A DNA stretch of 64,000 nt from Pyrinomonadaceae bacterium (GTDB lineage: Bacteria; Acidobacteriota; Blastocatellia; Pyrinomonadales; Pyrinomonadaceae), in NCBI GenBank assembly GCA_030841085.1, contig JAVEDP010000001.1, positions 1 to 64,000 on the forward strand. The letters run 5' to 3'. The notes under the pieces are model-generated. The model made no database searches and had not been told where the DNA came from. It saw only the letters and a list, made by a program, of their open reading frames with translations. Below, piece by piece: positions 56,680-60,242 of the stretch (the stretch's first letter is position 1; the number at the start of each line of letters is the position of its first letter). Position numbers and translations under genes: made by a program.

Positions 56680-58152
56680 ATGTGGAAGTTTAAGAATCCA
56701 ATTCGCCATGCAATCGCTGAAACATCCTGGCCAACTGCCGACGAAGCCGAGCGCTCGCTTCTGTTTCAGCCGGTTCGGATTGGTCCGCTGGAATTGGAAA
56801 GCCGCACCTGGGTGCCGGCGATGGTTCCCTGGCGCGCGACCGATGATGGCTTTGTAACTCAGGACAATCTCGATTGGTATCGACGTTTCGCGGCCGGGCG
56901 ACCGGGCGCGCTGGTCGTCGAAGCGACCGGCGTGCGCGACATTCCCAGTGGTCCATTGCTGCGCATCGGTCACGATCGCTTTCTGCCGGGACTGAAGCAG
57001 TTGGTGCAAACTGTAAAAGAAGCGAGCGGTGGCCACAGCAAGCTCTTCATTCAAATCATTGATTTTCTCAGCGTAAAACGCCGCCCGGAGCGCGAAAAAT
57101 ATTTCGAGCGTTTCCTGGAATTGAGCGAACGCCACCGGCACGCACTGGCTGAAGTTACCAACGATAATCGCTGGCTTAGTGCTTCGGAAACCGAAGTGCG
57201 CAATTACTTGAATGCAGCAACGGACGAGATTATTGAGTATGTACTCAGCAGGCGCGAGTTGGAATCGCTGCGTTTTGGTTATCGCGAGAGCGTTACCGAC
57301 GTCGACCTGCCGCATGTGCGTGACTTGCCCAAAGTCTTGCCGGAAATATTCGCAGCGGCTGCGCTGCGCGCGCGCGCAGCCGGGTTTGACGGAGTTGAAT
57401 TGCACTACGCGCACGCCTATACGATGGCTGGGTTCTTGAGCGCGCTCAATGATCGCAGCGATGGCTACGGTGGGCCCCGCCAAAATCGCGTACGTCTGCC
57501 TTTGGAAGTTTATCGCGCAGTGCGAAAGCAGGTTGGCGACGATTATGTGGTTGGGGTGCGCTATCTAGCGGATGAAGTGATTGCCGGCGGAAATCGTATT
57601 GACGATGCGGAGTATTTCGGAATTGAATTTGCGCGGGCGGGCTTTGATTTCCTGTCGCTCTCGAAAGGCGGAAAGTTTGAAGATGCTCAGCAGCCGAAAG
57701 TTGGCCAGGCTGTTTATCCTTACACCGGCCAGAGCGGTTACGAATGCATGCCGACGGTGCTTTCGGACGAGGCGGGACCATTTGGACGCAGCGTTCCCTT
57801 GGTTGCTGCCATCAAGCAAGCTGTAAACCGGGCCGGATTCAAAACGCCGGTGGTGGCGACGGGCGGCATCAGCACTTTTGAACAAGCCGAATCCATTTTG
57901 CAAAACCGACAGGCGGATATTGTTGGCTTCGCGCGCCAGGCGCTGGCCGATCCCGATTGGTTTGTGAAGGTGAAGCTCGGACGCGGCGCTGAAGTGAGAC
58001 GCTGCACTTACACTAACTACTGCGAAGCGTTGGACCAGGCCCACCGGCCAGTGACGTGCAAGCTATGGGATCGCGCCGATTTGGATGAGCCGGGAATTGC
58101 AACGGTGGATGAAGGAAGACGGCGGTTGCTCGCGCCCGAGTGGAAAGCGTAA
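56680..58152 (+). CDS. OYE-type flavin oxidoreductase, candidate reductase half of aminobenzoyl-CoA monooxygenase/reductase
   Basis: 490 residues, an Old Yellow Enzyme-like TIM barrel with FMN. LFQPVRIGPLELESRTWVPA opens the barrel; GFDGVELHYAHAYTMAGFLS and DRSDGYGGPRQNRVRLPLEV give the FMN/substrate loop, and GFKTPVVATGGISTFEQAES and QADIVGFARQALADPDWFVK the phosphate site. A central insert (about 105-205) and a Cys-containing tail (RRCTYTNYCEALDQAHRPVT) are unusual. In aerobic anthranilate degradation, a fused FAD monooxygenase/OYE enzyme hydroxylates and reduces 2-aminobenzoyl-CoA; here the two halves would be separate genes. It converges on the FAD monooxygenase gene with 14 bases between the stops. 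Confidence 0.78.
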   Translation: MWKFKNPIRHAIAETSWPTADEAERSLLFQPVRIGPLELESRTWVPAMVPWRATDDGFVTQDNLDWYRRFAAGRPGALVVEATGVRDIPSGPLLRIGHDRFLPGLKQLVQTVKEASGGHSKLFIQIIDFLSVKRRPEREKYFERFLELSERHRHALAEVTNDNRWLSASETEVRNYLNAATDEIIEYVLSRRELESLRFGYRESVTDVDLPHVRDLPKVLPEIFAAAALRARAAGFDGVELHYAHAYTMAGFLSALNDRSDGYGGPRQNRVRLPLEVYRAVRKQVGDDYVVGVRYLADEVIAGGNRIDDAEYFGIEFARAGFDFLSLSKGGKFEDAQQPKVGQAVYPYTGQSGYECMPTVLSDEAGPFGRSVPLVAAIKQAVNRAGFKTPVVATGGISTFEQAESILQNRQADIVGFARQALADPDWFVKVKLGRGAEVRRCTYTNYCEALDQAHRPVTCKLWDRADLDEPGIATVDEGRRRLLAPEWKA

Positions 58153-58166
58153 GTCACTGCGGTTCA

Positions 58167-60242
58167 TCAGGCAGGCCCGCTGTTATGGACCACACCAGCT
58201 TTGGTAATAAACGAATGATCTTCCGCAACGGTTAGATCATAGACCAGCTCATTAGCAAAACGCTGATCTACAAGTTCAACAAGGCCGAGATCGCCGGATT
58301 CATTTAAGATCACACGATCTCCGATCACCAGACACTCGGCTCTGCGCCAAAGTGTTCCCCTCCCCGCAAGCGGGGAGGGGTAAGGGGTGGGGTGCGAAGC
58401 GTCGTCGACCTCTCCCCCCTCCCCCCTCTCCGCTTGCGGAGATGGGGTGAGATATTCTGCAATCTCGGTCAGCACACCTTCGATGTTTTCAAATATCTGT
58501 TCATTTCTAAACCTTAGAATCCGAACACCCGCGCCTTGGATCTGTCGTTGACGAATGCCATCAGCCCACTGGGATCTATCTGATTCGTGTACAGAGCCAT
58601 CTAGCTCAATGGCAAGACTAAATTCTCGACAATAGAAATCGACAATGTAATTCGGACCTAGCGGATGCTGCCGTCTAAATTTTGCGGTTCTTAATCGTCG
58701 GTTACGCAGTTGTTCCCAAAGAACAATTTCAGCCGCCGTTCCGTTACGACGCAGATCGCGGGCAAGGTGAGCCAACCCAGCATTCTTGCCACCAAGCTTT
58801 CGGTGGATCGAAGTTCCCCTCCCCGCAAGCGGGGAGGGGTAAGGGGTGGGGGAGGTGCCGCTGCCGACCTCTCCCCCCTGCCCCCTCTCCGCTTGCGGAG
58901 AAGGGGTGAGAAATTTCTGCTCGGGCGTTACCCATACGAACGAATTGTCATTTTGCAGTTTAAGACCGATCATCCTTCCGACGTGCGGCCGACACTGTGT
59001 ACCGACAATTGCTCTCACTCTTCCTGCATGAGTCCAGACAAACTCATCCTTCTCAATAACCTCGATAGCCTTCCATCCTGAATTGGTTCTTACCAAGGTG
59101 CCGCCGGCAAAGCAATGTGTGCCCTCCTGTTCGTACCGCCAGATAAACTCCGGATCGCGCCGTTTCAAATCCTCTTGGTCCACTCGGCCGCTACGAGTCA
59201 TCAATGAATAAGCCAACTCAATCGGAGTGAGATGCATGTAGTCGCGCGCGTTCTCAAACCAGCGCATGCTGTCCTGCGCGGCGGCTTGGTATGCTTCAAT
59301 CACCGGCTTGCGTGTCGTCTCGAATTCATTAAGCGCAGCGCGGACACTCTCCTGCTTTTTGAAGCAGTCGAAAAGCGCAATCGCATCTTCCAGCGCCAAC
59401 TTGGTGCCTGAGCCGATTGAGAAGTGTGCTGTATGCAGCGCGTCGCCGAGCAGTGCCACATTTTCAAACGACCAGTTCGCGTTCTTCACCAGCAGGAAGT
59501 TGAGCCATTTCGAATTGTTCGAAAGGAGTGGCTGATTCCCTAAATCCGCGGCAAACACTTCTTCAAGATACCGACGAGTTTCGTCGTCAGTCATCGCCGC
59601 GAATCCGGCCGCATTCCAGGTTTGCGGATCGCATTCGATAATGAACGTACTGGTAGTTTGATTGAACTTGTAAGAGTGCGCGGCAAAAACACCCGCGTCG
59701 TTTTCACGAAAAGTCAGCGTCAGGCCGTGAAACAGCTTGTTGGTGCCATACCATATGTAACGATTCGGACGAACATCCAGCGATGGTCGAAACGCGGCAG
59801 CGTATTGCTTACGAGCCGTGCTGTTAACGCCGTCAGCCGCCACCAGCAAATCGCAATCGGCGCGCAACGACTCAAGGTCGGCAATCTCGGTACGAAAAAG
59901 TAATTCGATGCCGAGTTGTTCACAGCGCCTTTGCAGAATTTTGAGGAGCTGAAGCCGTGCAATTCCGGAAAAGCTGTTCCCGTGGATCGAGATCTTTTCT
60001 CCGCGGTGGACTACGTCGACGTTGTCCCAGGCCGCGAAACTCTTTGTGATTTCCGCGTGGGATTCCTCATCGGCCGCGCGCAGGTTTGCGAGTGTCTTTC
60101 CGGAAAACACGACGCCCCAGCCAAACGTATCGTCAGGGCCGTTACGTTCATAAACGGTGATGTCGTGAGCAGCGTCGGCCTTCTTCATGAGGATGGCGAA
60201 GTACATTCCCGCCGGCCCGCCGCCAATGATATTGATTTTCAT
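58167..60242 (-). CDS. FAD-dependent monooxygenase (aminobenzoyl-CoA/salicylyl-CoA hydroxylase-like) interrupted by an intein
   Basis: 691 codons. Residues 1-376 are an FAD hydroxylase: GGGPAGMYFAILMKKADAAH (dinucleotide fold), DCDLLVAADGVNSTARKQYA, and NVALLGDALHTAHFSIGSGT (GD motif), ending in RRDPEFIWRYEQEGTH. Residues 377-687 are an intein, and only SGPA follows before the stop, so splicing would give a 380-residue enzyme. The FAD half resembles the hydroxylase domain of 2-aminobenzoyl-CoA monooxygenase/reductase. It is the last gene of a minus-strand group (RidA, ECH, ACAD, NTase pair, this gene). Assignment to anthranilate rests on context. Confidence 0.85.
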   Translation of the reverse strand: MKINIIGGGPAGMYFAILMKKADAAHDITVYERNGPDDTFGWGVVFSGKTLANLRAADEESHAEITKSFAAWDNVDVVHRGEKISIHGNSFSGIARLQLLKILQRRCEQLGIELLFRTEIADLESLRADCDLLVAADGVNSTARKQYAAAFRPSLDVRPNRYIWYGTNKLFHGLTLTFRENDAGVFAAHSYKFNQTTSTFIIECDPQTWNAAGFAAMTDDETRRYLEEVFAADLGNQPLLSNNSKWLNFLLVKNANWSFENVALLGDALHTAHFSIGSGTKLALEDAIALFDCFKKQESVRAALNEFETTRKPVIEAYQAAAQDSMRWFENARDYMHLTPIELAYSLMTRSGRVDQEDLKRRDPEFIWRYEQEGTHCFAGGTLVRTNSGWKAIEVIEKDEFVWTHAGRVRAIVGTQCRPHVGRMIGLKLQNDNSFVWVTPEQKFLTPSPQAERGQGGEVGSGTSPTPYPSPLAGRGTSIHRKLGGKNAGLAHLARDLRRNGTAAEIVLWEQLRNRRLRTAKFRRQHPLGPNYIVDFYCREFSLAIELDGSVHESDRSQWADGIRQRQIQGAGVRILRFRNEQIFENIEGVLTEIAEYLTPSPQAERGEGGEVDDASHPTPYPSPLAGRGTLWRRAECLVIGDRVILNESGDLGLVELVDQRFANELVYDLTVAEDHSFITKAGVVHNSGPA
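58355..58451. repeat. Palindromic repeat copy 1 (downstream flank of DUF559)
   Basis: CCCTCCCCGCAAGCGGGGAG followed by a linker and CCCTCTCCGCTTGCGGAGAT. Direct repeat of 58814-58912, about 85-90% alike by eye. Coded on the minus strand as LTPSPQAERGEGGEV...PSPLAGRG. Confidence 0.9.
58814..58912. repeat. Palindromic repeat copy 2 (upstream flank of DUF559)
   Basis: Same structure and same orientation as 58355-58451, again in frame, coding LTPSPQAERGQGGEV...PSPLAGRG. The 362 bases between the copies carry the DUF559 domain. Confidence 0.9.

Follow-up and report, generated by a model that had tools for sequence, protein, structure and literature searches.

A gene for an aromatic-degradation hydroxylase in a soil bacterium of the Pyrinomonadaceae carries a predicted intein-type Hint element that ends four codons before the stop, and within this element, directly after block B, lies a DUF559 nuclease domain set between two palindromic repeats. 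The gene is part of a 64,000-nucleotide stretch of DNA, here called the window (positions 1 to 64,000 of contig JAVEDP010000001.1, assembly GCA_030841085.1); its genome is referred to as G000, and other G and L numbers denote comparison genomes and loci. With a probability of roughly 0.7, we propose that an intein-type Hint is lodged at the far C-terminal end of a CoA-ester FAD hydroxylase, and that it gained its endonuclease through a mobile repeat-DUF559-repeat cassette that entered a mini-Hint. A preliminary description of the window had recognized an intein in this gene; it overlooked the internal nuclease, the palindromic repeats and the position right after block B.

The hydroxylase and its Hint element

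The open reading frame at 58167-60242 on the minus strand (691 codons) encodes, in order, a salicylyl-CoA-5-hydroxylase-like FAD monooxygenase (residues 1-376; 59115-60242, minus strand), which is the N-extein, a 311-residue Hint segment, and the C-extein SGPA with its stop codon (58167-58181, minus strand). Residues 1-373 match the N-terminal half of NF006101, a bifunctional salicylyl-CoA 5-hydroxylase/oxidoreductase, with an E value of 9e-144 and a score that is under the whole-protein cut-off, as expected for a half-length match. The CoA-ester aromatic hydroxylase named in the preliminary description is the host, and its closest named matches are in Blastocatellia metagenome-assembled genomes. 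The hydroxylase gene and a gene for an OYE-type reductase (56680-58152, plus strand) are separate and convergent here; the two activities form one protein in the NF006101 model. Other neighboring genes encode tryptophan 2,3-dioxygenase-like, kynureninase-like, acyl-CoA dehydrogenase, enoyl-CoA hydratase and Rid-family proteins, of which only the enoyl-CoA hydratase scores above its model's own cut-off, and this gene set suggests a tryptophan or anthranilate CoA-ester pathway. A host outside the customary range of inteins had been claimed, and it is indeed unusual, but a metabolic parallel exists in the intein of GDP-mannose dehydratase, according to a published account (PMC9403480). GC3 is 0.37-0.52 in the parts of the insert and 0.63 in the host gene.

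The element itself (58182-59114, minus strand; residues 377-687 of the frame, Cys1 to Asn311) is supported by translation, a TIGR01443 match, a structural model and structural alignment. It reads CFAGGT...VVHN and lies between GTH, which ends at codon 376, and SGPA-stop; translation confirms to the nucleotide the placement first proposed. The N-terminal half (residues 1-68; 58911-59114, minus strand) carries blocks A and B, and the C-terminal half (58182-58355, minus strand) carries block F (VYDLTVAEDHSFI) and block G (GVVHN). The earlier claim of four intein blocks with Cys1, a terminal His-Asn and Ser+1 holds for blocks A, F and G and for Cys1, H310-N311 and Ser+1; block B here reads VTPEQKF, with Gln66 in place of the catalytic His. 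This TxxH histidine is highly conserved in inteins and not strictly defining, and the change to Gln is seen again in three GyrA inteins from the window's bacterial family (L244, L247 and L248; TPDQKF or TPGQLF). The residue at position -1 is a bulky His. Two inteins of SufB, an Fe-S assembly protein, from acidobacterial genomes (L116 and L245) have a canonical TPEH block B, and four further loci (L122, L241, L242 and L243) look alike; LAGLIDADG was confirmed in the SufB intein of L116.

By sequence alone the Hint is weak, one of four intein or Hint models passing its cut-off. TIGR01443 intein_Cterm scored 23.6 bits (cut-off 15.6); TIGR01445 intein_Nterm (13.4 bits, cut-off 24.5), Pfam Intein_splicing (19.0, cut-off 35.8) and Pfam Hint_2 (18.6, cut-off 28.4) scored below theirs. 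The predicted structure settles the identity as a Hint (intein) fold. A first AlphaFold2 run, based on a DUF559-heavy alignment, modelled the Hint poorly (pLDDT mostly below 50) and was set aside for a second, which reached a mean pLDDT of 77.9 with a pTM of 0.47, so that the relative placement of the domains is unsure. In the second model the Hint comprises residues 1-70 (mean pLDDT 92-97 per ten residues) and approximately 255-311 (79 at residues 251-260, then 88-96 to the end). The modelled Hint matches inteins and bacterial intein-like (BIL) domains at Z 19-20; the BIL domain 2lwy ranks first (Z 19.6), on a par with the intein of Mtu RecA (Z 19.3, 126 residues, 31% identity). Because Z is 19.3-19.6 over 126 residues, a chance match is very unlikely.

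A repeat-flanked nuclease within the Hint

The nuclease domain (58449-58772, minus strand) lies between blocks B and F and matches DUF559 (PF04480) with 105.8 bits (cut-off 20.6; E 1.4e-30). This Vsr-like domain matches the solved endonuclease-like structure 3hrl (E 6e-14), and its model resembles the catalytic domain of the homing endonuclease I-Bth0305I (3r3p; Foldseek E 1.6e-3, TMt 0.72). The model is mostly at pLDDT 76-91 in the DUF559 core, falling to 61-69 near residues 171-190. Residues E129, D159, E170, D172 and H176, which we take to be the catalytic residues of DUF559, are all kept and form invariant columns across 8 sequences; the domain probably cuts DNA. Sixteen Pfam matches were obtained, among which there was no transposase family, and the enzyme matches DUF559.

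On either side of the nuclease is a 103-nt repeat built of palindromes and translated in frame. Copy 1 (58813-58915, minus strand) is read as LTPSPQAERGQGGE...PSPLAGRGT, and copy 2 (58354-58456, minus strand) is 88% identical to it. The linkers that they encode are disordered in the model, with pLDDT below 50 at residues 74-101 and 225-252. G000 contains this 103-nt repeat at two places only, both in the element, and it has 3 hairpins of the form CCCCTCC..GGAGGGG, 2 of them in the window.

To place the cassette, the Hint was aligned with the mini-intein of Pho RadA (hhalign probability 93) and with LAGLIDADG inteins from the phylum. The cassette follows block B directly and precedes LWRRAECLVIGDRV, standing between KF and LW in place of the turn after block B. 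At this point a LAGLIDADG intein of the phylum whose host is a B12-dependent ribonucleotide reductase (L114) reads VTAEHPFLTTDGW without interruption; the turn is FLTTDGW in that intein and KF-cassette-LW here. According to a published report (PMC6801210), intein endonucleases occupy one highly conserved site, and the DUF559 cassette is not at this insertion site (C35) in the Hint.

Inteins with nested homing endonucleases, such as that of Mtu RecA and the LAGLIDADG inteins of ribonucleotide reductase, GyrA and SufB in the phylum, have in common with the element a Hint fold, Cys1, His-Asn, a nested nuclease and a patchy distribution. The element differs from them in that DUF559 stands between palindromic repeats and off the conserved site, in the Gln of block B (common to the three GyrA inteins), in its catabolic hydroxylase host and in its 4-residue C-extein. 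I-Bth0305I, an EDxHD (Vsr-like) enzyme, has a catalytic domain fold like that of the DUF559 domain, which differs in being flanked by repeats here and in occurring on its own as well as in frame within restriction genes. REPtrons (REP sequences with RAYT; PMC3733652) likewise have a gene for a DNA-cutting enzyme that is flanked by palindromic repeats and partly co-occurs with them; their enzyme is an IS200/IS605-type tyrosine transposase, whereas here it is DUF559 and the repeat core is CCYCTCC..GGAGRGG. Palindromic elements of Rickettsia, described in PMC10969869, also lie in frame in protein genes, whereas here a nuclease domain stands between two repeats.

DUF559 genes and palindromic repeats at other loci

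The arrangement recurs. Left and right 250-nt flanks were compared, an alignment score of at least 30 being counted as a shared repeat, and a repeat common to both flanks was found at 38 of 43 DUF559 loci of the phylum versus 1 of 28 PIN control loci from the same genomes; the 43 loci are not all independent, because 23 belong to one clade. Five of the 43 were under the threshold, including L159 (score 21) and L160 (score 18), and these two have repeat-like residues on both sides despite their DNA scores. Among named records from other phyla, a shared flank repeat was present at 50 of 73 DUF559 loci versus 5 of 253 shifted windows at the same loci; some of these shared flanks (e.g. L069, L076) are not hairpins or palindromes. 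At four loci DUF559 lies in frame in a type I restriction gene, HsdR in L159, L160 and L190 and HsdS in L191, with no Hint family among their Pfam matches at E <= 0.001. The HsdR insertions are at two different sites, and in L190 DUF559 is found between two stretches of the ATPase domain.

Most hairpin-rich genomes also have DUF559. At least 10 copies of CCCCTCCN3-12GGAGGGG were present in 19 of 37 genomes with DUF559 (E <= 1e-15) versus 3 of 359 without, the other 18 DUF559 genomes holding fewer than 10; outside the window's family the counts were 4/17 and 3/351. Fisher values for this link overstate independence, because the genomes are related. The three genomes that reached 10 copies without DUF559 were G412, G225 and G356, of which G225 also has 16 matches to a control pattern. 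No DUF559 was found in G412, which has 269 hairpins, or in G487, which has 235 of a second pattern; a different mobiliser, or a nuclease since lost, may account for the abundance of repeats in both. The second hairpin pattern showed no link to DUF559 within the family (4/32 versus 5/87, p 0.25).

Alternatively, the element could be a conventional homing intein whose endonuclease is Vsr-like and into whose linkers unrelated genomic repeats were later inserted. Dassa and co-workers reportedly described Vsr-like endonucleases in inteins in 2009. A section on inteins in PMC9403480 assigns DUF559 to the EDxHD family of homing endonucleases. DUF559 as an intein endonuclease is not new. In G017, the second genome with the element, the repeat occurs at tens of places across the genome, so that later insertion is possible there. 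In G000, however, the repeat is confined to the two flanks of the nuclease, and in G017 the first repeat is present at the corresponding position, with a remnant where the second would be. These features, the similar flanks of other DUF559 genes and the location of the nuclease away from the usual site make later insertion improbable.

What is new is the repeat-flanked cassette, where it lies within the Hint and that it recurs at further loci; together these points fit the capture of an endonuclease by a mini-intein. A search of open-licence literature yielded no description of an association of DUF559 with palindromic repeats, which is weak evidence of novelty. PMC12907096 reports the Caulobacter DUF559 protein VsrA as responsible for an SOS response in cells without a cytosine methyltransferase. 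The wider proposal, that DUF559 with short CCYCTCC..GGAGRGG palindromic repeats constitutes a widespread and hitherto undescribed kind of mobile element with in-frame insertion into protein genes, one of which made a mini-intein endonuclease-bearing at a new position, seems to us as probable as its contrary.

Distribution, splicing and significance of the element

The element is an insertion. It is present in 2 of 41 host homologues, those of G000 and G017, the homologues coming from 40 of 119 family genomes; one of the 39 counted as lacking it (G005) was unread near its end. An 89% identical relative, G011, is without the element. Intein-free homologues of the family stop 0-21 residues past position 363-376, in answer to the check suggested in the preliminary description, and their tails, which were seen in one set of 35 loci (some outside the family) and one of 10 and otherwise judged by frame length, are short, variable and often near the convergent OYE gene. 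A fixed C-terminal domain of the hydroxylase family was therefore rejected, 39 of the 41 homologues having no such tail. The long frame of G452 (650) was also rejected as a C-terminal tail, since the gene stops 7 residues beyond position 371. Of the loci outside the family, L029 ends in a long, repetitive tail, and L036 runs on into an OYE-like domain. In L003, the intein-free 89% relative, the tail is different (RNAYTGTAGVPPANGTRSH) and gives the impression of read-through into a further repeat family at this end of the gene.

The joined Hint was matched by 12 of 396 phylum genomes at E <= 0.01, and a two-row Hint profile by 19 of 119 family genomes; in both searches only G000 and G017 matched strongly (others E 5.7e-7 or worse with the joined Hint). 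Among plasmid records, 42 matched the element, none of them over 80% of its length, and the 20 of these 42 that were listed all match inside the cassette (residues 69-266).

Overall, the copies of G017 and G000 share 55% identity. Its block B is TPSQ, again with Gln for His, and it keeps Cys1 and ends in GIACE-stop; having neither a terminal His-Asn nor a C-extein, it is incapable of splicing in the usual way. In a tree of 118 rows the two embedded DUF559 domains group as sisters (support 99/97), and they form the best-conserved part of the element (63% identity, pN 0.27, pS 0.78), the Hint halves being 48% and 51% identical. Across the parts of the element pN is 0.27-0.37 and pS 0.74-0.97, near saturation, and Hint and DUF559 thus look constrained at the protein level. 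The host gene is better conserved (75%, pN 0.16), so the element was not recently transferred between the two genomes.

These comparisons bear on whether the element splices. The original intein call stands with respect to the Hint fold and the insertion, and is weakened with respect to splicing competence by the Gln in both copies and by the missing His-Asn of G017. One might instead regard the element as a C-terminal autoprocessing domain, BIL or Hedgehog-like, which acts on the end of the hydroxylase by cleavage or modification and does not splice. BIL domains are autoprocessing Hint domains that have no conserved nucleophile at +1. The structure fits a BIL domain as well as an intein, the C-terminal place would suit such a domain, and the G017 copy, which has no +1 residue, could undergo N-terminal cleavage at most. 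The window copy, however, has His-Asn followed by Ser+1, which is the intein arrangement; occurrence in 2 of 41 homologues is not that of a fixed functional tail, and a nested nuclease suits a mobile element better. We therefore consider autoprocessing without splicing unlikely. That the element is a decayed intein, now an inert tail, is likewise doubtful: the lost residues and the low intein-model scores would agree with decay, but pN is well below pS, there are no stops, the motif residues are kept, and the three GyrA inteins also have Gln at block B.

According to the capture model, a palindromic repeat-DUF559-palindromic repeat cassette would have entered a mini-Hint in frame at the turn just after block B, and it may also have moved into the Hint by itself. 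The order, mini-Hint first and cassette later, is our reconstruction, since no close cassette-free Hint was found at this host site. Cleavage of DNA by DUF559 would then promote homing of the entire element to alleles that have no intein, movement of its repeats, or both. In G000 the Hint would excise itself by means of Cys1, His-Asn and Ser+1 to leave hydroxylase-SGPA, with the Gln of block B perhaps compensated and the bulky His at position -1; splicing of the window copy is plausible, and we predict it at about even odds. The C-terminal position of the site would let the enzyme tolerate the tail even unspliced, and splicing could decay harmlessly for the host, as the G017 copy suggests, with the nuclease staying conserved.

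The way in which inteins come by their endonucleases is a standing question in their evolution. At this locus repeats still mark the junctions, in an unusual place, and the same type of cassette occurs free-standing and in other genes, so that a route of acquisition can be tested. The locus represents one way in which a splicing element could gain a means of spreading. If DUF559 does mobilise palindromic repeats, there would be a candidate mobilising enzyme for a large and poorly explained class of repeats found in many phyla.
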